Source: Myxococcota bacterium (GTDB lineage: Bacteria; Myxococcota_C; UBA6777). From it: DNA of 56,645 nt. Below, piece after piece: positions 33,888 through 53,066 of the stretch. The stretch covers positions 1-56,645 of the forward strand of contig JAKLKB010000029.1 of NCBI GenBank assembly GCA_023150835.1, read 5' to 3'. The position numbers and the translations under genes are program-made. The notes under the pieces were generated by a model that was given only the letters and a program-made list of their open reading frames with translations, had not been told where the DNA came from and made no database searches. The first letter of the stretch is position 1, and each line of letters begins with the position of its first letter.

Positions 33888-34254
33888 GCACATCGCTCCC
33901 ACAGCAAAACAAAAAAGATGGAAAAGATCGCTCACTTGGCGCATCAAGGAGTGCGCAGGCGCAACGGCATCTTACGAAACCCCGTTCTGGCGCACAAAAT
34001 TTCCACATTTCTCTCAACACCTCACCACGCCGATTGATGGGCGAAAGCCCAACCAAAAAAGATCTCAAACGGCATCGGTCGCTGCTTGGTTTTGGCCTCT
34101 TTGTTGCCAAAGCGGTTTTGGCAGCAGAGAGGTCAAAGCCTCACGAAAAGAAATCTCGAAGGGAGCTCCCTTCTTGTGATACGCTTCGGAAAAGATTCCC
34201 CCAACGCGGCGTCCCCATGACCCGCAAGGTTGCTTGCAACGGAAGGATAAAGCA
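33888..34254. other. Divergent intergenic region (367 bp)
   Basis: Separates xerC (minus) from the Cys-repeat lipoprotein (plus). It contains a perfect 16-bp palindrome (34158-34173). No gene is supported. Confidence 0.6.
34158..34173. promoter_or_regulatory. Perfect 16-bp palindrome, candidate operator
   Basis: GAAGGGAGCTCCCTTC is fully self-complementary and sits 81 bp before the Cys-repeat lipoprotein start, in a divergent promoter region. It could bind a dimeric regulator; no matching family is recognised. Confidence 0.4.
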
Positions 34255-37200
34255 ATGCGTAGGCAAAGAACGCGAGACTTTTTGAAATGGCTTCCTCTCT
34301 TGTTTGGTTTGTTATTGATGGCCGCTTCTGCGGGTGGATGTGGGTGCGACGACAAGTCCACGGGCGAAAACACCGAAAGCACCGAGATATCGACCGATGG
34401 CGGAACCGAAAAGATCATCAAGGAGAACGAACCCGAATTCGACGGCACTTGCTCCAAACGCTGCGATTGTCCGCAAGGTCAAGAATGTAGCGAAGGGAAG
34501 TGCGTTTCCACCACGACTCCTGTGTATTGCTGCGATCGAGACGGCTGCCCTGTCGGCCAAGCCTGCAACGATCACGAAGACAAGCCAAGCGTCTGTGCCG
34601 CCCGCCAAACCTGCAAACATTCATGTGATTGCAAGCAAGGTCTCGGATGCGTCGATGGTTTCTGTACAGCGACACGCAATCCAACGTATTGTTGCGAGCG
34701 CATCGGCTGCCCGCCGGGACAAGCTTGCGAGTCCGCACGCGGCGGACAAAAAACCTGTGGCGATGAAGGTGCGGCTTGCAACACAGCGTGCGATTGCATC
34801 GCAGGGATCGCCTGCACCAACGGCCAATGTACACGAACAGGCCAGCTTGTGTACTGTTGCGAAGACACCAACTGCCCAACGGGCCAACGCTGCCAAAACC
34901 GAAAAGGCGGCTACGATCTTTGCCAACAACAACAAGCCTGCAAAACCGCTTGTGATTGCAACGCCGGCCAAGCCTGCAACAGCGGCAAGTGCGAGTCCCA
35001 ACCGATCCCTGTCTATTGTTGCGACAAGCCCGATGCTTGCCCCGCAGGTCAAGTGTGCGATCGCTCCGATGGGCAACGCGACAAATGCCCCTCGCAAGTC
35101 CAATGCAAAAGCCCTTGTGACTGCGCCCAAGGCCAAGACTGCCAAAATGGCCGTTGCGTGGTCAACCCTTTCCCTGTCTATTGTTGCCGACTGGCGGGAT
35201 GCCCGCCCAACGCCGAATGCGCCAACCCCGATGGATCGAAAGGAACGTGCAGCACACCTTCTTGCCAAGGCGATGCCGACTGTGGAAGACCGACTTGCGC
35301 CCAAGCGGGCGATCGCTGTAGCCAAGTCAGGCCCACTTGCCAACGCGGGATCTGCACCAACAGCGTCAACGAAGGCCCGGGCGTTTGCGACCCCAACAAC
35401 GGAACTTGCCGCCTTGAAAGCCAATGCAAAGTCGACTGCGATTGCCCTCAAAGCCAAGCCTGTGTCGACGGCAAGTGCGAGATCACCCCGCCCGGCGGGC
35501 GCCCCACATATTGCTGCATCAAGCCGGGATGCCCCACAGGCCAATCTTGCGTCCAACCCAACGGAACACGCGGCCTCTGCCCCAGCGCCAAGTGCCAGAT
35601 CCCCGAAGACTGCGGCCCACCCACCTGCCAATCTCTCGGAACAGACTGTGTCCAATTTAAGCCCTTTTGCGATGATTCCGGTCAATGCGGCACTTCACGC
35701 GGTGCTGTTTCGGTCAATTCGCTTTGTGGACCCGACGGGATCTGTGGCCCCGCTCCGATCCAATGCAAGACGCCTTGCGATTGCGCCCAAGGCCAAAACT
35801 GTCTGAACAATCGCTGCATCACCGATCCTTCGGCTCCAATGTACTGCTGTGAAAACCCGGGATGTCCCCCCGGGGCCAAGTGCATCGATCGCGCCGGTCA
35901 AGGCTCCAGTTGCAAACAGGTCTCTTGCCGCAGCGATGCCGACTGTGGCGGCACGATCTGCCGAAACGCCGGAAACGACTGTATCCAAGAAAGTTTCCGA
36001 TGCGACATCGCCCAAGGCCAGTGCTTCGGAAGCGGAAGCGTCCAAGGCAACGCGATCTGCGATGCCGCCACCAACACTTGCAAACCGCGTACAGCCCAAT
36101 GTCGCGCCGATAGCGATTGTGGCGCTCCATCCTGCCGACAAAATGGACAACTTTGTCAACAAACGATCCCTGCTTGCAGCAACGGAACTTGCATCGGCAC
36201 AGGAAGCTCGACAGTCGGCACTTGTGCGCCCGATGGCAAGTGCCAAACCGCGACATTCTGCCGGATCTCTTGCGACTGCCCACAAGGCCAGTCTTGCCAA
36301 GCCTCTCCCGTCGGAACGGGCGTTTGCGTCCAAAGCAACCCACCCACTTACTGCTGCGACAAAGCAGGCTGCCCTGCGGGTGAAAAGTGCATCAATACCC
36401 AAAACCAAGGCGGTTTGTGCAAAGGCTCCTGCCTCAGCGCTTGCGATTGCCCCGCAGGACAGGACTGCATCAACGGCGCTTGTAGCAGCACCACCCCTGC
36501 CGTGTACTGCTGTGACAACCCCTCGCAATGTCCCGCAGGTGCGGCCTGTCGAGACAAAGCAGGCACACTCAAGACTTGCCCCCAAGTCCAACGCAAGTGC
36601 AACTCACCCTGCGATTGCGTCCAAGGCGAAGCCTGCGCGGGCGGATTCTGTGCCACGACCACCAAGCCTGTGTACTGCTGTACCGCCGCTGGATGCCCCG
36701 CTGGTTCCGAGTGTTTCGACAAAAACAACTTGCGCGGCACTTGCCCCCGACCCTGCACCACAAACTGCGACTGTAACCAAGGCGAACGCTGCGTCCAAGG
36801 CGCTTGTACCGCCCAATTTGGCGTAGGTTATTGCTGCTCCAAACCCGGATGCCCCGCCAACCAAGTCTGCTACAACACCAACGGCTCTTCGGGCCGATGC
36901 CCTGTTGCTTCCTGTACTTCGGCTTGCAACTGCACCCAAGGCGACGATTGCCGCAACGGCACTTGTACCCGCGTCTTCCCGCCTGTGTACTGTTGCTCGA
37001 ACACCAACTGCCCCACAGGATCGGCCTGTATCAACACCAGCGGCCAGTGGTCCACTTGCGGCGGACAACCCGCTTGCACCTCCGCATGCGATTGTAACCA
37101 AGGCGAAGACTGCTATCGAGGCCAGTGCATCCGCACCTCCCCCGCCACGTACTGTTGCGAAAAAACAGGATGCCCCTCTGGAACCGCATGCTTCGATAGC

Positions 37201-37584
37201 AAGGGACAATCTGGCGTTTGCCCGGGTGTCCAATGCACCACCGCCTGCGACTGCAACGTCGGCCAAGCCTGCTTGCGTGGGCGATGTGTCTCGACCTCCC
37301 CAGCCACGTACTGTTGCGACAAAACCCCCTGTCCATCGGGCAATACCTGTGAAGACAAACTCGGCAACTTCAAAACTTGCCCCGGCAAAACGTGCAAAAA
37401 TGCTTGCGACTGCAACCAAGGCGAAGACTGCCGTGGTAGCGTCTGTTTGCGCGTCTCTCCTGCCGTCTTCTGTTGCTCCAAGCCCGGATGCGCCCCCAAC
37501 CAAACTTGCATCAACGTGGACGGCACTTCGGGCCGCTGCTCTTCCACCCCCCCTCCTCCCCCACCACCCGTCCCCTTCCCCTAA
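34255..37584 (+). CDS. Giant Cys-rich repeat lipoprotein
   Basis: 1109 aa from ATG 34255 (GGAAGGA 7 nt upstream). The signal ends in the lipobox AGGC. An acidic Thr/Glu linker follows, then fifteen modules of ~45-50 residues with the pattern C-x3-C-D-C-x2-G-x2-C-x3-x-C...YCC...CP-x-G-x2-C...C. After modules 5, 6 and 7 (twice) a second module type is inserted (DCG-x-P-x-C...C...C). The end is a Pro-rich tail. Spacing resembles Dickkopf/EGF-like disulfide knots, but the exact family is not recognised. It is a disulfide-rich surface rod by inference. The modules resemble those in the protease at 6439-8916. Confidence 0.85.
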   Translation: MRRQRTRDFLKWLPLLFGLLLMAASAGGCGCDDKSTGENTESTEISTDGGTEKIIKENEPEFDGTCSKRCDCPQGQECSEGKCVSTTTPVYCCDRDGCPVGQACNDHEDKPSVCAARQTCKHSCDCKQGLGCVDGFCTATRNPTYCCERIGCPPGQACESARGGQKTCGDEGAACNTACDCIAGIACTNGQCTRTGQLVYCCEDTNCPTGQRCQNRKGGYDLCQQQQACKTACDCNAGQACNSGKCESQPIPVYCCDKPDACPAGQVCDRSDGQRDKCPSQVQCKSPCDCAQGQDCQNGRCVVNPFPVYCCRLAGCPPNAECANPDGSKGTCSTPSCQGDADCGRPTCAQAGDRCSQVRPTCQRGICTNSVNEGPGVCDPNNGTCRLESQCKVDCDCPQSQACVDGKCEITPPGGRPTYCCIKPGCPTGQSCVQPNGTRGLCPSAKCQIPEDCGPPTCQSLGTDCVQFKPFCDDSGQCGTSRGAVSVNSLCGPDGICGPAPIQCKTPCDCAQGQNCLNNRCITDPSAPMYCCENPGCPPGAKCIDRAGQGSSCKQVSCRSDADCGGTICRNAGNDCIQESFRCDIAQGQCFGSGSVQGNAICDAATNTCKPRTAQCRADSDCGAPSCRQNGQLCQQTIPACSNGTCIGTGSSTVGTCAPDGKCQTATFCRISCDCPQGQSCQASPVGTGVCVQSNPPTYCCDKAGCPAGEKCINTQNQGGLCKGSCLSACDCPAGQDCINGACSSTTPAVYCCDNPSQCPAGAACRDKAGTLKTCPQVQRKCNSPCDCVQGEACAGGFCATTTKPVYCCTAAGCPAGSECFDKNNLRGTCPRPCTTNCDCNQGERCVQGACTAQFGVGYCCSKPGCPANQVCYNTNGSSGRCPVASCTSACNCTQGDDCRNGTCTRVFPPVYCCSNTNCPTGSACINTSGQWSTCGGQPACTSACDCNQGEDCYRGQCIRTSPATYCCEKTGCPSGTACFDSKGQSGVCPGVQCTTACDCNVGQACLRGRCVSTSPATYCCDKTPCPSGNTCEDKLGNFKTCPGKTCKNACDCNQGEDCRGSVCLRVSPAVFCCSKPGCAPNQTCINVDGTSGRCSSTPPPPPPPVPFP

Positions 37585-44531: not shown

Positions 44532-46796
44532 CTAAAGGAAATACAAAAACAAGAGCGTCGCACCACCACCGATCAAGACGAGAAGCAACGCGCCAAGCAA
44601 CAAAGCGAGAAAGGAAGGGCCGCTTTTTTCATCGCTGCTTTTGAGGGCCATCGGTCCGACATTTTTGCGCCGAAGCATCGAACTCGTTGGGGCGGGTTGG
44701 GGAGGTGTTTGTTTTCCAGCGAAATGCTGTTCAGGGGCGCGTTGAATGCCCGACGAAGGGCTTTGTTCTGCATGGAAGTGCGCAGGGGGGGGGGGCGTGC
44801 GCGGGGCCGAAGAAGCAGGCTTGGGTGTACGGCGCAAACCGCTCGTGGCTTGGGCATCAAGGAAGCCATACGAAGGGGTGAGCGGAGTCGAAGAATGCGC
44901 GTAAGAGCCGGGCGTATCGTTGAGATCGAGGATCGGGAGAGGAGATTCGGGGGCTTGGAAAGCGAGCAGATCGTTGCTGGAATCGGTGGAACTCAGGAGA
45001 GGACTTTGGACGGGGGGAGATTCATAAAGCGAGACGAGCAGATTGGAAGTACTGGGTGTATGCCCAAGCCCGACATCATCGGTCTCTGCGGCAAGCAGGG
45101 GGTTTGCTTTGACGGGAGCGCTTTTGTCGTGGTGGATCATCCGCCCGACGATCACGGGAGCGTCTTCGTCGTCTTCGTCGTCTTTGTTGTCTTTGTTGTT
45201 GCGTGCGTGGGGTGAAGACACCAAGAGCGGACGATGGGGGTCTTCGGCGCGCTTAAAGAGATCGAGGCAGTTCGAGAGTTCGTGCCAAAACATATCCATC
45301 GAAGGGGGGCGCTTTTGGGGATCTTTTGCTAACGCACGCGCCACGAGACTTTCGAGCTCTTGGGGATAAGCGAGATCCGAGCGCACTTGAGCCAGCTTCG
45401 GCGGCTCGGCGTACACATGGCGCAACATAATCTGATAAGCGCTGCTGCCCTCAAACGGAGGCTGGCCTGTCAAGCACTCAAAAAGGATGACGCCCAACGA
45501 ATAGATATCGGAACGATGGTCGGTGTTGCCTTCGCCGGCTTGTTCGGGCGACATATAGCGCGGCGTCCCGATGGTCATGCCTGTTCGTGTCAGGCGTTGA
45601 TCTTCGTCGCTTGCGACCATCTTGGCCACCCCAAAGTCAAGGATCTTGAGGCGTTGTTGGAGGACATCCCCCGAGGGGTTTTCCATCAAGAAAAGGTTAT
45701 CGGGCTTGAGGTCGCGGTGAAAAATACCCCGAGAGTGCGCAAAGCCCATCCCATCGCAAACTTGGCGAAAGATCGTTTGGAGAAAATGGATATTGAGGCG
45801 TTCGGGTTCAAACTCGAAGACGTCTTCAAGGCTCTGTCCGCGCAAGAACTCCATCGCAATAAAAAAGCCCACCCCGTCCTCAAACCCAAAGTCATGCACA
45901 TACACAATGTTGGGGTGGCGAAGTTGATTTTGGGCTTGGGCTTCGCGATGGAAACGCCGTACCACACGCTCGTTCGAGTTGAGATGCGAGCGCAGGATCT
46001 TGACGGCGGCTTCGCGCTGCGTGTCGATGTCGACCGCTTGGTATACCAAACCCATCCCGCCCTCTCCGAGCTTTCGATCAAGGCGAAAGTGGCTGACGTT
46101 CTTGTGCAACAGAGGATCGGCTTGGGCCAGATCCATCGGCGAGCCGCAATAAGAGCACGCTTCTTTTTCAACGGGTTCTTGGTGCCCGCAAGCCGGGCAG
46201 GGGCGAAGTTGTAGCTTGGGCGGAGCGATATTGTACGCAGACTCCGAATGAAATTTGTTGGGAGGATGATCGTTTTCATCCTCCAGTTCGGTAAATTCGA
46301 GACTACCTGTCTTCTCGGCAGATGCGTTGTTTTGCTCGTTACGAAAATGGATCTGGAGGGTATTGACGATCGAAGAAGGTGTCGCAACCCCAATCGAAAG
46401 GTTGTCGATCTGCGCGTACAGCTTGATGGCTTCGATGGTTTGGTGATCGAGGGGGTTGGGCAAAAGGATGTGAAGGACTTCGTGGTCTTGGTCGAATCTC
46501 CACGGAAGAAACGAGTGTTCGAGCAACAAAAAGGGCGGAAATTGTTGGAGCAGCCCGGTGTCTAGCTGGAGATGGAGGATATCTTCTTCGGTCCAAAACC
46601 GCAAGCCGAGCTGCCGAGCAATTGCGCGGTAGAGGTCTTGTTCGGAAACAGGACATAGGCCCATCAAGATCTCTAAGAGGTGTCCTCCCTGTCTTTCACG
46701 GGTACGGAGCGCAGCTTGCCAGTCGTGGCGTTGGATCAAGCCGTCTGCGATCAGGAGTTGCCCAAATTGAAGAGAGTCACTCATGTAAAGAGCCAT
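44532..46796 (-). CDS. Ser/Thr protein kinase with N-terminal GspE/MshEN-like domain, membrane-anchored
   Basis: 754 aa (or 750 from the ATG at 46784; neither has a clear ribosome site). Residues ~5-150 match the N-terminal domain of type II secretion/pilus ATPases (T2SSE_N/MshEN): FGQLLIADGLIQRHDWQAAL, LLEILMGLCPVSEQDLYRAI. Residues ~200-222 are a zinc ribbon (CPACGH...CSYCGS). A Hanks-type kinase follows from about 236: LGEGGMGLVY, AAVKIL (Lys), HRDLKPDNLF (catalytic Asp), LDFGVAK and GTPRYMSPEQ. A long disordered segment leads to a C-terminal membrane segment, so the kinase faces the cytoplasm. MshEN domains of some pilus ATPases bind cyclic di-GMP; whether this one does is inference. It is divergent from ribF and pilB. 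Confidence 0.9.
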   Translation of the reverse strand: MALYMSDSLQFGQLLIADGLIQRHDWQAALRTRERQGGHLLEILMGLCPVSEQDLYRAIARQLGLRFWTEEDILHLQLDTGLLQQFPPFLLLEHSFLPWRFDQDHEVLHILLPNPLDHQTIEAIKLYAQIDNLSIGVATPSSIVNTLQIHFRNEQNNASAEKTGSLEFTELEDENDHPPNKFHSESAYNIAPPKLQLRPCPACGHQEPVEKEACSYCGSPMDLAQADPLLHKNVSHFRLDRKLGEGGMGLVYQAVDIDTQREAAVKILRSHLNSNERVVRRFHREAQAQNQLRHPNIVYVHDFGFEDGVGFFIAMEFLRGQSLEDVFEFEPERLNIHFLQTIFRQVCDGMGFAHSRGIFHRDLKPDNLFLMENPSGDVLQQRLKILDFGVAKMVASDEDQRLTRTGMTIGTPRYMSPEQAGEGNTDHRSDIYSLGVILFECLTGQPPFEGSSAYQIMLRHVYAEPPKLAQVRSDLAYPQELESLVARALAKDPQKRPPSMDMFWHELSNCLDLFKRAEDPHRPLLVSSPHARNNKDNKDDEDDEDAPVIVGRMIHHDKSAPVKANPLLAAETDDVGLGHTPSTSNLLVSLYESPPVQSPLLSSTDSSNDLLAFQAPESPLPILDLNDTPGSYAHSSTPLTPSYGFLDAQATSGLRRTPKPASSAPRTPPPPAHFHAEQSPSSGIQRAPEQHFAGKQTPPQPAPTSSMLRRKNVGPMALKSSDEKSGPSFLALLLGALLLVLIGGGATLLFLYFL

Positions 46797-47103
46797 CCGT
46801 TAGAGGAAACTGGAAGAACCACGCAGAGTGTGGCTGTTGACGGGTTTCAAACCAAGCAACACCAAGACTTGGATGCTTTATACATCCAACGGCGTTTTGC
46901 CCCAACACAAAATTGTTGCAAGCATAACGGAGGTCCGTAGTGCGGTCAAGCCCACATCAAGCAAGCGTCGTGGATTGACACAGCGGGTTGTCGGGTATAG
47001 AAGAGCCAGAACAAACGCCGTGGAACGATCGACCACCACAGTCGCACACCAAAACAACAGCCTCCACGGCAGACAAAAACCAACACACAAGGAGACAACG
47101 GGT
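46797..47103. other. Divergent intergenic/leader region (307 bp)
   Basis: Lies between the kinase start and the ribF start. It contains a candidate ribF promoter (46975-47001). I looked for an FMN riboswitch and saw no recognisable conserved core; the leader from the promoter to ribF is only ~100 nt. Confidence 0.5.
46975..47001 (+). promoter_or_regulatory. Possible ribF promoter
   Basis: Perfect -35 TTGACA (46975-46980) and TATAGA (46996-47001) with a 15-nt spacer, shorter than ideal. It lies ~100 bp upstream of the ribF start. Confidence 0.35.
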
Positions 47104-48063
47104 TTGTGGGTGCTTTCGGGATATCGAGAAGCAGCGAAACAGCGAGCGCCATCGGTGGTCGCCATCGGAAATTTTGACGGTGTTCATCGCGGGCATCAGG
47201 CGATAATCGGGCGTTTGGTCGAGCGCGCACGCACCTTGGACTGTCGGGCGCTGGTTTACACATTTCGCCCACACCCAATGCACGTGTTGTTTCCGCAACG
47301 AGCCCCCCTCTTGTTGACCACCTACCCACAAAAAGCCTCACTCCTTCGACAACTCGGCGTAGACGGTGTCGTCGAAGAACCCTTCACCTCTACCTATGCC
47401 TCTTACAGCCCAGAACAATTCGTCCAACAAGTACTCATCGATGCTTTGCAGACCCGCGAGGTCTGGATCGGCCCCGACTTCACCTTTGGACGTGGTGGTT
47501 CCGCCACCCCCGAAGAGATGCGACGACTGGGCGAACCTTTTTTCATGGATGTCTGTGTCGTCGAAGCCCAATACATCGAGGGCATCCGAGCCTCCAGCAC
47601 CCGAGTCCGCGAAGCCTGCACACAAGGAGATATGCCCCGTTCCGCTTCCTTGTTGGGCCGATTGTTCGAGTTGAGTGGCTTGGTTGTACACGGCGACGCA
47701 CGCGGTCGCACCCTTGGGTTTCCAACCGCCAACCTCGAACCTTGGCAAGGAATACGCCTCGCAAGTGGCGTCTACGCTTGTTGGGCGTCTTGGGGACTCG
47801 GATGGCACAAAGCCGCTGTCCATGTCGGACTACGCCCCACCTTTTCAGACGACGCATGGCGCGTCGAAGCCCATCTCCTTGATGTCGAAGCCGATCTATA
47901 CGCAAAACCCTTGGCCTTGGCCTTTGTCGAAAGGCTACGCGCACAGCAAGATTTCGCAGGCGTGGACGCTTTGATCGCCCAAATCAAACAAGATATCCAA
48001 AACACCCGCACATTGCTCTCCCCAATGACGGCCCCTTCGCAGGCCCCTTGGTTGGGGGGATGA
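47104..48063 (+). CDS. ribF: Bifunctional riboflavin kinase/FAD synthetase
   Basis: 319 aa (E. coli RibF is 313). The start is inferred to be TTG at 47104, with AAGGAG 9 nt upstream; no ATG lies near the conserved N-terminus. FAD-synthetase half: AIGNFDGVHRGH (nucleotidyltransferase HxGH-like), FRPHP, GPDFTFGRGG, and the ASSTRVREA motif. Riboflavin kinase half: ARGRTLGFPTANL, SGVYACW and a C-terminal FVERLRAQQDF. It phosphorylates riboflavin to FMN and adenylates FMN to FAD in the cytoplasm. It is followed 105 bp later by pilB. Confidence 0.93.
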   Translation: MWVLSGYREAAKQRAPSVVAIGNFDGVHRGHQAIIGRLVERARTLDCRALVYTFRPHPMHVLFPQRAPLLLTTYPQKASLLRQLGVDGVVEEPFTSTYASYSPEQFVQQVLIDALQTREVWIGPDFTFGRGGSATPEEMRRLGEPFFMDVCVVEAQYIEGIRASSTRVREACTQGDMPRSASLLGRLFELSGLVVHGDARGRTLGFPTANLEPWQGIRLASGVYACWASWGLGWHKAAVHVGLRPTFSDDAWRVEAHLLDVEADLYAKPLALAFVERLRAQQDFAGVDALIAQIKQDIQNTRTLLSPMTAPSQAPWLGG

Positions 48064-48168
48064 GATCCTTCTTGCGTCTACAGCACAGAATCGTCTAGCA
48101 TAAACCACCCAACGCGACGCACCATACGACGAACCCTCTGGTACGTCCCCAAAAAGGAGACCCCCCGC

Positions 48169-49968
48169 ATGAGTCAAGGAAAACCCGGAGATCCCAACGC
48201 ACGGCGTTCTGGAGCGCTACTGGTTCGCTCAGAAAAAGGCCTATCCACACAGGTCCGACAAGCGCAAGACCTCAAGCAAAAAAGCGGCGGGGTGGGACGC
48301 GACGGCAAGTACCTCATGAAAACAGGGGCGCTTGACGAAGAACAAATGAAAGATTGGCTCAGCAAGCAGTATGGCGTGCCTGCCGTCAATCTCGATGACT
48401 TTGAACTCGAATCCGAAGTCTTGTCTCTGCTCTCCCGCGAACTTGTTCAAAAGCACATGGCCGTCCCCATGAGCCGCGTCGGAAACTCCCTCATCGTCGC
48501 CATGGTCGACCCCTCGAACATCTACGCCATCGACGACTTGAAATTCATCACAGGCTACGGTGTCGATGTCGTCGTCACCTCCGAGTCCTCCTTCCAACGC
48601 GCCTTTGAAAAATATTACGCCCACCTCCCCGAAACCATCAAAGAAAAGAAACGCCCCGGACAACAACCCCAAGGCGAAGCCAAATTACCCGAGTACGATT
48701 ACGACACCCTCATGGCCGAACTCGACGCCGACCGCGTCGATGTCGTCGACACCGACGGCGACAACGAATCCGCTCTCGATCTCGAACGCTCCGCCGACGA
48801 AGCCCCCATCGTCCGCTTGGTCAACATGATCTTGCTCGATGCCATCAAACGCAGCGCCTCCGACATCCACGTCGAAGTCTATGAAAAAGAAATGCGCGTC
48901 CGATACCGCATCGACGGCCTTCTCTACGAAATGATGAAACCACCCTTCCATCACCGAAACGCCATCACCTCCCGCCTCAAAATCATGAGCAACTTGGATA
49001 TCGCCGAACGCCGCTTGCCACAAGACGGTCGGATCAAGCTCAAACTCGGGAAAGGCCGTGAGATGGACTTTCGCGTCTCCGTCTTGCCCACCCTCTTTGG
49101 CGAAAAGACCGTTATGCGTCTTCTCGACAAATCCAACCTCCAATTGGATATGACCAAACTCGGCTTCTTTGACGCCCAACTCAAAGACTTCCAAGAAGCC
49201 ATCAACCGACCCTACGGCATGGTCCTTGTCACGGGCCCTACCGGTTCGGGAAAAACCACCACCCTCTATTCCGCTCTCTCCGAACTCAATAAACCCGATA
49301 CCAACATCTCCACCGCCGAAGATCCCGTCGAATTCAACCTCTACGGCATCAACCAAGTCCAACAACACGAAGACATCGGCCTCAACTTTGCCGCCACCCT
49401 CCGCTCCTTCCTCCGCCAAGACCCCGACATCATCATGGTCGGTGAGATCCGCGACTTTGAAACCGCCGAGATCGCCGTCAAAGCCGCTCTCACAGGACAC
49501 TTGGTTCTCTCCACCCTCCACACCAACGACGCACCCGCCACCGTCAACCGCCTCCTCAACATGGGCATCGAACCCTTCCTCGTCACTTCCGCCACCAACT
49601 TGATCGTCGCTCAGCGCCTTGGCCGCAAGATCTGCTTCAAATGCAAAGAAGAGATCGAAGTCCCCAAACAAAGCCTCCTTGACCTTGGCCTCAAAGAAGA
49701 AGAACTCGGCTTTAAAGTTTACCAAGGACGCGGCTGTGAAACCTGCAACAACACCGGCTACAAAGGACGGATCGCCTTCTACGAAGTCATGCCCATGTAC
49801 GACTCCCTCAAAGAAATGATCCTCAATGGTGCCACCAACATCGAATTGAAGGCCACCGCCATGCGCGCTGGCATGATGACCCTTCGGATGTCCGCGCTCG
49901 CCCACTTTAAGGCCGGAACCACCTCGATCCAAGAGATCCTCCGCAACACAGCACCCGACTCTTTCTAG
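48169..49968 (+). CDS. pilB: Type IV pilus assembly ATPase (PilB/GspE family)
   Basis: 599 aa. Start at 48169 (AAGGAG 9 nt upstream). An N-terminal T2SSE_N-like domain (residues ~45-150; YLMKTGALDEEQMKDWLSKQ) precedes the ATPase: SDIHVE, Walker A GPTGSGKTTT, Asp box TAEDPVEF, Walker B IIMVGEIRD, and a His box in STLHTND. A tetracysteine zinc motif (CFKC...CETC) follows, as in PilB/GspE. It powers pilus extension or type II secretion. No pilT or pilC is next to it in this window, unlike many bacteria. The kinase gene divergent to ribF carries a related N-terminal domain. Confidence 0.92.
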   Translation: MSQGKPGDPNARRSGALLVRSEKGLSTQVRQAQDLKQKSGGVGRDGKYLMKTGALDEEQMKDWLSKQYGVPAVNLDDFELESEVLSLLSRELVQKHMAVPMSRVGNSLIVAMVDPSNIYAIDDLKFITGYGVDVVVTSESSFQRAFEKYYAHLPETIKEKKRPGQQPQGEAKLPEYDYDTLMAELDADRVDVVDTDGDNESALDLERSADEAPIVRLVNMILLDAIKRSASDIHVEVYEKEMRVRYRIDGLLYEMMKPPFHHRNAITSRLKIMSNLDIAERRLPQDGRIKLKLGKGREMDFRVSVLPTLFGEKTVMRLLDKSNLQLDMTKLGFFDAQLKDFQEAINRPYGMVLVTGPTGSGKTTTLYSALSELNKPDTNISTAEDPVEFNLYGINQVQQHEDIGLNFAATLRSFLRQDPDIIMVGEIRDFETAEIAVKAALTGHLVLSTLHTNDAPATVNRLLNMGIEPFLVTSATNLIVAQRLGRKICFKCKEEIEVPKQSLLDLGLKEEELGFKVYQGRGCETCNNTGYKGRIAFYEVMPMYDSLKEMILNGATNIELKATAMRAGMMTLRMSALAHFKAGTTSIQEILRNTAPDSF

Positions 49969-50159
49969 TTTGCGGCTTCTGCCTTTCGCTCTCCTTTCGA
50001 TCGATGCCGCTTCGTCGGGCGCTTTGCCGACCTCTGCGTCGCCACAAAACACCCCGCTGCGTCTCTCGCAGGGAGTCTATTTGGAGGTTCTTCTCGCCTT
50101 CTCCATATCGCTCCGTACCCTCTCGCGAAACCTTCGGCCCTACCCATAGGGAGTCACGC

Positions 50160-53066
50160 ATGCACCCTGCCATCCACACCACCGATCTCGCTCTTTTGCT
50201 GCGCTTACAAAACGAGATGTCTCCCGATCTCGACTCGCTGGCCTCCGATCTTGGAATCTCCCTCCCTCAACTCCAACAACGCCTGCGCTTCTTTCAAGAA
50301 CAAGGCTGGCTGCGTGGCTTCTTTGGCCAACTCCTTGGACGTCCTCTCGGACTCGATGTCACCGCCTTTGTCCTCTTGACCTGCCAACATTCCACCCTCT
50401 GGGACGAGATCTCCGCTCTCACCCTCACCGAAGACGAGATCCAAGAATGCCACACCCTTGGCGGCGAATGGACACACCTCCTCAAGATCCAAACCCCTTC
50501 CACCTCCTCCCTTGACGCCTTGATCCACCGCATCCAAGAGTGGCCCTCCATCCTACGCACACAAAACCTCGTCGTCATGGCCACACCCAAACAAACCACC
50601 TCCCTGCCTTTGGCCCTCTTGCCTACCGCACCCTCCTCCAACACAAATGCCCTCCCACACAACCCTCCCTCCACACAACATCCCACCCCTTCACAATCTC
50701 AGCTTCCCTCCACACAACATCCCACCCCTTCACAATCTCAGCTTCCCTCCACACAACATCCCACCCCTTCACAATCTCAGCCTCCCTCAACGCAAAAGCC
50801 CGTACCTTCACAATCTCAACCTCCCTCAACGCAAAAGCCCGCACCTTCACAATCTCAACCTCCCTCAACGCAAAAGCCCGCACCTTCACAATCTCAACCT
50901 CCCTCAACGCAAAAGCCCGCACCTTCACAATCTCAGCCTACATCCGCACAAAAGCCTGCACCTTCACAAACACAGATCCCTGCGGCTCCCCCTCTTTCCC
51001 AAACAGCCTCCCCGACCTCGAAGCCCACCGCCGCTTCTATCACGACAAGTAAAGCAACCTCCTATTACCCAGCAACCACCGCTCGTATCGCTGTCCAAGA
51101 AGCCGCCACAAACCCCGTGACGACTCCACCAGTCCCCGCCACCACACCTCCAACGGCTCCGCCCACCACAAACCCTTCATCCAGCGCTCTCCCCGCGCTT
51201 CCAGCACTCTCCTCCCCCTCCACAGCACTCCCCGCAATCCCCCCCTTCCCTTCCCTCTCCTCCCCCGCAGGAGTACTCTCCTCGACTCCCCATACACACC
51301 ACACTGCCCAACCACCCGCCGTATCCATCCGACCACCCTCCAGCACCTCGCTCCCTCAATCCACCGATGCCGCAGCCTCCGTACACCCCCCCCTCCGTGA
51401 TCCCCTTTCTTCTATCAGCGCCGCTGTCGATATCTTACTCCCCTCCATCGAGATCGATATGATCGGCGAATTGGATATCGCCACCCGCGCTGCCTCCAAT
51501 CCTCAACTCTACAACGCCGCCAAATCCAAAGATCGCGCTGCCTTCGCCTCTTCCGACTCCTTAAACGCCATCCACTCCCACACCAAAGACGACCTCGCCC
51601 TCGTCGACGCAACCCTCACCACCGACCTCACAAACCAAGACCTCGACGAAAACCACCACAGCGAACCCACTCCCCAACAAACCCACCACACAGCCCCTTC
51701 TCCCACACTTCACGCCAACACGACCGCCCCAACATCCACCACACCCTCCCCATCAACCACCACCACACCCTCCCCATCAACCACCACCACACCCTCCCCA
51801 TCAACCACCACCACACCCTCTCCATCGACTTCTGCCAGTCCCCCCGACTCGACCTCCGATCCCAAGATCCTCAACGAACGTCTGGCCTTCTTAAAGCGCA
51901 AACGCGACGCACAACACGACTCACGAGACGACTTGCCCTCAAAAGAATCCATCTCCTCGGTCTCTTCCGCCTCTCGTTCTTCGGATGCCGTTTCTATCGT
52001 CTCGCAATCTTCCTTGCCTTCGGCCTCTCCGTCCACGCAAAGCGCCGAGATCGGCGGTGTCTCGATATCTGCACATTCCCAAGGCTCCGTCTCCATAGAC
52101 GATCAGATCGCTTCGCTCCCTTCGGCTTTTGCAAACGATGCCCACGATCTCGAACCCTCCACCTTGGTCGCTCCTGCACCCGCCCTTCCGCCCCACGATT
52201 CGCCAAGCGAAACCCGACAAGACCTCTCCAGCATCGAACCCCCTCCCCTTCCAAGCGTCGATAGCACCAACCCCGGTGTCTTGCTCGCCTCCGTCGAGGC
52301 TTCCGCATGGCTGACACAAGGCCCCACAGAACCCGACGCTTGGGCTGACGAAGATCCCACCTTCGAAGTCATGATCGAATCCCTTGAAGTCGATGAACTC
52401 CGCATGGTCGAAGTCTTGAGCGCTGTCAAACGTATGTTTTGGTCCAAGCTCCGCGATCTCAGCTCCCAATGCTCCAACGAAAATGTGATCGCCTTCCTTC
52501 ACTCCTTGGATCTCTCCCCCATCCGCATGACCCTTCGCGAAACGGCCCAACAAGTCGTCGAAGAGATCGCCGAAGTCTACGCCCAAAAACTCGACGAGAT
52601 CGCCGATGCCCGCCAACTCGATGTCGCCTCCCGCGTACCCTATATCCTCGACCCAGAACGCCGCGATCGCATCGCCAGCGATATCCGAACCCCTTTCCGA
52701 GAATTTGTTGAGCGACTCGAACGCTTGGATCAAGCCCGTGATAGCATGCTGCTCTTGCTCAACGATCAGATCTCCGCTCAACTTTCTCGTCAAAAGCCCC
52801 TTCTCTCCGCCTCTTTGCTACACAAGCTCCAACGCGCCGAAGAACCCCGCAGCATCGAAACCGCTTGGGCCTTGTGGTTAGAAGCCTTGAAACGCGCCAT
52901 GACCCTCTACCAAGCCGAAGCTCCCGAGGAAACTGCACAGATGGTTCTTGCCCTCGAACAATTCATCTCCCAGTTTGAACCCACCTATAGCGCGATCTTA
53001 AACCGTATCTTGGAGATCTGGACCGACAAGTTGTTGCCCCCTCTTGAAGCACTGATCGATGCCTAA
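50160..53066 (+). CDS. Lrp/AsnC-like fusion protein with long low-complexity region
   Basis: 968 aa. The start at 50160 has GGGAG 6 nt upstream; the open frame upstream is not supported. Residues ~6-60 resemble an AsnC/Lrp helix-turn-helix (LLLRLQNEMSPDLDSLASDL, then RLRFFQEQGWLRGFFG). Residues ~65-145 resemble the ligand-sensing RAM domain (EDEIQECHTLGGEWTHLLKI...DALIHRIQEWPSI). A disordered region of ~550 residues follows, with eight 13-residue repeats (PPSTQKPAPSQSQ type) and SPSTTTTP repeats. The last ~230 residues are an all-helical domain I do not recognise (EVDELRMVEVLSAVKRMFWS...). Lrp proteins usually bind DNA and are ~150 aa, so this size is highly unusual. It lies between pilB and the rpoH-type gene on the same strand. 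Confidence 0.8.
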   Translation: MHPAIHTTDLALLLRLQNEMSPDLDSLASDLGISLPQLQQRLRFFQEQGWLRGFFGQLLGRPLGLDVTAFVLLTCQHSTLWDEISALTLTEDEIQECHTLGGEWTHLLKIQTPSTSSLDALIHRIQEWPSILRTQNLVVMATPKQTTSLPLALLPTAPSSNTNALPHNPPSTQHPTPSQSQLPSTQHPTPSQSQLPSTQHPTPSQSQPPSTQKPVPSQSQPPSTQKPAPSQSQPPSTQKPAPSQSQPPSTQKPAPSQSQPTSAQKPAPSQTQIPAAPPLSQTASPTSKPTAASITTSKATSYYPATTARIAVQEAATNPVTTPPVPATTPPTAPPTTNPSSSALPALPALSSPSTALPAIPPFPSLSSPAGVLSSTPHTHHTAQPPAVSIRPPSSTSLPQSTDAAASVHPPLRDPLSSISAAVDILLPSIEIDMIGELDIATRAASNPQLYNAAKSKDRAAFASSDSLNAIHSHTKDDLALVDATLTTDLTNQDLDENHHSEPTPQQTHHTAPSPTLHANTTAPTSTTPSPSTTTTPSPSTTTTPSPSTTTTPSPSTSASPPDSTSDPKILNERLAFLKRKRDAQHDSRDDLPSKESISSVSSASRSSDAVSIVSQSSLPSASPSTQSAEIGGVSISAHSQGSVSIDDQIASLPSAFANDAHDLEPSTLVAPAPALPPHDSPSETRQDLSSIEPPPLPSVDSTNPGVLLASVEASAWLTQGPTEPDAWADEDPTFEVMIESLEVDELRMVEVLSAVKRMFWSKLRDLSSQCSNENVIAFLHSLDLSPIRMTLRETAQQVVEEIAEVYAQKLDEIADARQLDVASRVPYILDPERRDRIASDIRTPFREFVERLERLDQARDSMLLLLNDQISAQLSRQKPLLSASLLHKLQRAEEPRSIETAWALWLEALKRAMTLYQAEAPEETAQMVLALEQFISQFEPTYSAILNRILEIWTDKLLPPLEALIDA
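50664..50975 (+). repeat. In-frame 39-nt minisatellite, eight units
   Basis: Eight 39-nt units encode a 13-residue Pro/Ser/Gln repeat in the Lrp-like protein. The first three (HPT variant) and the last ones (KPA variant) form two subfamilies, indicating stepwise expansion. Confidence 0.88.

Follow-up and report, generated by a model that had tools for sequence, protein, structure and literature searches.

A pilB-linked Hanks-type kinase of Myxococcota carries an MshEN domain predicted to be blind to c-di-GMP

Gene content of the locus

The window, that is, the whole stretch of DNA analysed here, comprises 56,645 nucleotides from a Myxococcota bacterium (contig JAKLKB010000029.1) and encodes a multidomain Ser/Thr kinase divergently from ribF and pilB (Table 1). 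The sequence-only reading of this DNA had described the kinase as beginning with a GspE/PilB-type N-terminal domain, followed by a zinc ribbon, a complete Hanks kinase and a membrane anchor, and all four elements were recovered. The N-terminal domain belongs to the MshEN family by both its Pfam profile score (PF05157, 37.4 bits at aa 66-154, with a curated cut-off of 23.1) and its full fold. The ribbon, C200-x2-C203...C214-x2-C217 (CPAC...CSYC), scores below the Pfam cut-off (16.3 versus 27.3 bits), yet none of its four cysteines varies among the orthologues. The Pkinase match is accompanied by an intact K266, HRDLKPDN, DFG and GTPRYMSPE, and its catalytic columns are invariant across orthologues, identifying a member of the Hanks-type kinases. 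Since the final ~27 residues form a hydrophobic segment, and such a C-terminal segment occurs in all orthologues, the protein is probably tail-anchored, with every domain in the cytoplasm.

The same reading had placed PilB nearby, across ribF, with an N-terminal domain related to that of the kinase. This also stands: the gene product exceeds the TIGR02538 equivalog threshold (777.6 versus 675.65 bits) and has an MshEN domain of its own (84.4 bits, Pfam). The start of ribF was placed at about 47104, while the listed open reading frame opens upstream at 46828. Two further proteins of the window are conserved in relatives in whole or in part. One, of 1020 residues (50004-53066), combines an Lrp/AsnC ligand-binding domain at aa 132-193 with a linker of Pro/Ser/Thr repeats, and its C-terminal region is shared with relatives; the other, of 1116 residues with internal repeats (34234-37584), is conserved in relatives and has no Pfam match.

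Table 1 Features of the kinase-ribF-pilB locus, in window coordinates.
Feature	Position	Strand	Evidence
MshEN-zinc ribbon-Hanks kinase, probably tail-anchored, 754 aa	44532..46796	-	ORF and Pfam/NCBIfam matches
MshEN_N four-helix bundle, aa 10-62, with degenerate 53-residue c-di-GMP motif QFG...R / HLL...C...Q	46611..46769	-	Motif score, contact positions
MshEN_C alpha/beta subdomain, aa 63-155, corresponding to the GspE/PilB ND1 region	46332..46610	-	PF05157, 37.4 bits
Four-cysteine zinc ribbon, aa 200-217	46146..46199	-	CxxC...CxxC, invariant in 5 orthologues
Hanks-type Ser/Thr kinase domain, aa 238-505	45282..46085	-	PF00069, 179.9 bits
Pro/Ser-rich variable linker, aa 511-720	44637..45266	-	22-28% identity among orthologues, dN/dS 0.16
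C-terminal hydrophobic anchor, aa 728-754	44535..44615	-	Sequence
ribF, FAD synthetase/riboflavin kinase	47104..48063	+	PF06574 and PF01687; start from DNA
pilB, type IVa pilus extension ATPase	48169..49968	+	TIGR02538, 777.6 bits

The N-terminal domain models as a complete MshEN fold

We modelled the first 160 residues with AlphaFold, using 14 related sequences as input (mean pLDDT 87.7), and compared the model with PDB structures using Foldseek and VIA-align. By sequence alone, the best PDB matches were Thermus thermophilus PilF and its GSPII-A domain. The closest structural counterpart highlighted by the comparison was Vibrio cholerae MshE (5HTL; Z 17.0 over 139 residues, 21% identity), followed by XpsE (2D28, Z 15.4), PilF GSPII-B (Z 15.0) and Xanthomonas citri PilB (7LKO, Z 14.7), while structures without kinship to MshEN drop to Z about 5. 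Taken separately, the MshEN_C subdomain matches the ND1 of PilB in 3JC8 (Z 10.3) and GspE in 4PHT (Z 7.4). According to the model, then, the kinase carries a complete MshEN fold, alike to MshE throughout its four-helix bundle and alpha/beta subdomain. Where MshE has an ATPase, however, this protein has a Hanks kinase, and R9, L25, Q32, R38, G40 and G47 are not kept.

Gene order around pilB is conserved as part of a long block

Our comparison set for the phylum comprised five genomes, four of which are metagenome-assembled genomes named Myxococcota, Deltaproteobacteria or Myxococcales bacterium. In all five, an orthologue of the kinase lies beside ribF and pilB with unchanged relative orientation. 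Given the fold match to MshE and the presence of the fusion in every one of these genomes, the architecture is not a chance event. As a pointer to function, gene order fares less well: the kinase-ribF-pilB arrangement does recur in relatives, but within a conserved block of nine or more genes, most of them unrelated (SNase-birA-kinase-ribF-pilB-AsnC-like-sigma-DUF3108-TM7S3). Synteny was thus weakened as proof of a pilus function once the length of the block emerged, and it is a weak argument that kinase and pilus are functionally linked; the kinase may have persisted beside pilB passively. It is the sole opposite-strand gene of the block common to all five genomes, and therefore is not part of the pilB operon. 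In one relative (G003, L045:14336-15505), a PilT-like gene directly follows pilB; the window has no such gene at this point.

The c-di-GMP site of the kinase is degenerate

In MshE, a pair of 24-residue motifs binds c-di-GMP, as described by Wang et al. 2016 (PMC5013675). We therefore took as the receptor signature two copies of RLGxx[LVI][LVI]xxG[LVI][LVI]xxxxLxxxLxxQ, and scored sequences with the NCBIfam model of the 53-residue motif (NF053729, cut-off 38 bits). The corresponding region of the kinase reads QFGQLLIADGLIQRHDWQAALRTR-ERQGG-HLLEILMGLCPVSEQDLYRAIARQ. Compared with the consensus, motif I has R9Q, L10F, L25W and Q32R, and motif II has R38H, G40L and G47C, so that 7/11 and 5/11 strict positions remain, short of the receptor signature. 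Seven of the 12 ligand-contact positions are kept; R9, L25, Q32, R38 and G40 are lost. The orthologues keep 6-8 of 12, sharing L10F, L25W and G40L/I in every case and R9Q/H, G11V/I and Q32R/H in most.

The motif model aligns nearly end to end with the kinase (aa 11-62), with scores of 33.6 bits at full length and 36.9 for the domain alone, both below the cut-off, as are those of all orthologues (32.2-35.6 bits). As controls, the binder PilF GSPII-B reached 60.9 bits, Geobacter PilB 67.3, and PilF GSPII-A, a proven non-binder, 52.5; passing 38 bits is accordingly no proof of binding, and a score below it is more telling. The kinase therefore departs more from the consensus than does a protein known not to bind. 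For GSPII-A of T. thermophilus, regained binding required, among other changes, an arginine at the R38 equivalent, and a glycine at the G40 equivalent was needed for tight c-di-GMP binding (PMC12002112). The kinase has His and Leu at these positions.

These data bear on the earlier suggestion that the kinase shares a ligand, possibly c-di-GMP, with the pilus motor. If the kinase were a receptor, the messenger would bind its MshEN domain, gate the kinase and be common to PilB. Membership of the MshEN family, the 17 GGDEF matches that indicate c-di-GMP synthesis in the host genome, the score of the isolated domain just under the cut-off and the tolerance of PilF GSPII-B for some substitutions (PMC11731258) would speak for such a receptor, which we nevertheless regard as very improbable in view of the lost contacts, the bulky residue (Leu or Ile) that each orthologue has in place of G40, and orthologue scores that all fall under a cut-off passed even by GSPII-A. 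The adjoining PilB has a degenerate motif as well, reaching only 12.5 bits and with a spacer two residues longer; PilBs of the relatives score 21.7, 30.9 and 36.8 bits, also below the cut-off. With residue loss and low scores on the kinase side and a weak motif in PilB, a shared c-di-GMP ligand appears unlikely, and the idea was dropped as the leading reading on the strength of the residues and of profile scores read against binding and non-binding controls. Of the two observations named beforehand as refuting the earlier reading, missing ligand residues and a gene order not kept in relatives, the analysis made the first but not the second.

A predicted ligand-blind variant of a known architecture

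Wang et al. 2016 (PMC5013675) had already reported MshEN-Ser/Thr kinase fusions, which they took as a sign of c-di-GMP control. Their domain combination is the same as here, and the architecture as such is already known. What sets the present orthologues apart is the absence of the ligand residues and the synteny with pilB, and judging by its residues the pilB-linked group is a ligand-blind variant. Our literature search found no paper on this group.

Across the five phylum genomes we counted 15 MshEN-kinase fusions. Ten lie away from the pilB locus, and only the pilB-linked orthologue is represented in every genome. Two paralogues not linked to pilB, both without a zinc ribbon, retain 12/12 contact positions: G002:C780 (L054:3092-4579; 60.1 bits) and G004:C22 (L053:8448-9938, minus strand; 66.1 bits). 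Their sequences make them candidates for directly c-di-GMP-gated Hanks kinases. The window's own genome also encodes a protein combining MshEN with HD_5, receiver and DUF4388 domains (G000:C47, L056:9820-12474; 70.5 bits, 11/12 contacts).

Outside the phylum, we ran a profile search of ~860 genomes (381 across bacteria, 195 of a large-genome phylum with many zinc-ribbon kinases, probably Myxococcota, and 282 of another), in which none of the matches listed covered both MshEN and kinase; as 3-7 candidates per genome were scored, rare fusions such as those of Wang et al. are compatible with this result. A pattern scan of genome contigs returned the same four relatives only. Zinc-ribbon Hanks kinases, probably of Myxococcota and of other phyla, align well with the ribbon and kinase part, while the MshEN part is present in none of the matches listed from outside the phylum.

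The N-terminal subdomain is conserved despite its lost contact residues

Between two congeneric genomes, MshEN_N (aa 8-62) shows 0 nonsynonymous versus 11 synonymous changes. Identity between genera amounts to 64% for MshEN_N, 42-53% for MshEN_C, 22-28% for the linker and 71-73% for the kinase. The substitution pattern indicates that MshEN_N is under purifying selection and not decaying, and is thus probably kept for something other than c-di-GMP. One candidate function is a re-specialised pocket, in which the invariant L10F, L25W and G47C would form a new aromatic site for another nucleotide or metabolite. The substituted residues F11, W26 and C48 (protein numbering) are indeed invariant in 5/5 orthologues, unlike the outcome of free decay; however, aromatic side chains may merely fill the pocket, and the first Arg position varies among the five orthologues (Q, Q, Q, H, R), as would not be expected where a defined ligand binds. 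We consider a new pocket quite unlikely, and the function under selection is most likely protein binding.

Docking at the pilus platform or a general-purpose kinase

MshEN folds in which the c-di-GMP residues are incomplete are known from PilF GSPII-A (9G1W), XpsE (2D28) and the ND0/ND1 of X. citri PilB (7LKO), with Xanthomonas campestris XpsE showing the same G40L substitution as the kinase. Those domains sit on secretion or pilus ATPases; here the domain sits on a kinase. In X. citri PilB, the fold without c-di-GMP residues binds PilZ (PMC8389850), and type II secretion (T2SS) ATPases bind GspL, the PilM homologue, through their N-terminal region, as in XpsE/EpsE with XpsL/EpsL (PMC6325625). 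PilM is present in 5/5 phylum genomes, as are PilZ-domain proteins.

Because PilB and GspE N-domains bind PilM or GspL (via ND1) or PilZ, that of the kinase would, by analogy, dock at the platform. We tentatively propose that the MshEN of the kinase is ligand-blind and serves for docking, with a protein of the pilus or T2SS platform as a plausible partner. The protein would be a cytoplasm-facing, tail-anchored Hanks Ser/Thr kinase equipped with a copy of the PilB/GspE regulatory domain, which, no longer binding c-di-GMP and with its fold strongly constrained, would work as a protein-docking module and bring the kinase to the inner-membrane platform of the pilus (or T2SS). There, PilB, PilM or neighbours would be possible phosphorylation targets; alternatively, the kinase could compete with PilB for its dock. 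Both the docking partner and the substrate are inferred, as is any influence on pili, and the kinase may regulate the pilus through phosphorylation, as the sequence-only reading had proposed. Pilus linkage is weak, given a synteny block of unrelated genes and the kinase's position outside the ribF-pilB operon. Furthermore, the phylum has many MshEN-kinase paralogues that do not lie near pilB, which argues that the module is not dedicated to pili.

The same facts suit a general-purpose MshEN-kinase unrelated to pili, in which MshEN would be a dimerisation or autoinhibitory domain, the targets would lie elsewhere, and proximity to pilB would reflect inherited block synteny. Most fusions in the five genomes lie outside the pilB locus, the block includes birA, ribF and a sigma factor, and the kinase is transcribed divergently. 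Against this stand the singular presence of the pilB-linked orthologue in all five genomes and its distinct, conserved and apparently ligand-blind MshEN_N. We hold the general-purpose kinase and the docking module to be equally likely, each being tentative.

The most specific form of the docking proposal is unlikely as a whole: that the kinase borrowed the motor's docking domain, lost the messenger site and acts from the pilus platform, either as a switch that phosphorylates locally or as a decoy for PilB's dock, while sister kinases keep the site and are directly gated by c-di-GMP. If a ligand-free MshEN does dock the kinase on the pilus machine, this would give Ser/Thr phosphorylation a direct route to pilus motors. 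The occurrence of apparently ligand-blind and ligand-competent MshEN-kinases in one phylum would also provide a ready comparison for the question of direct gating of Hanks kinases by c-di-GMP.
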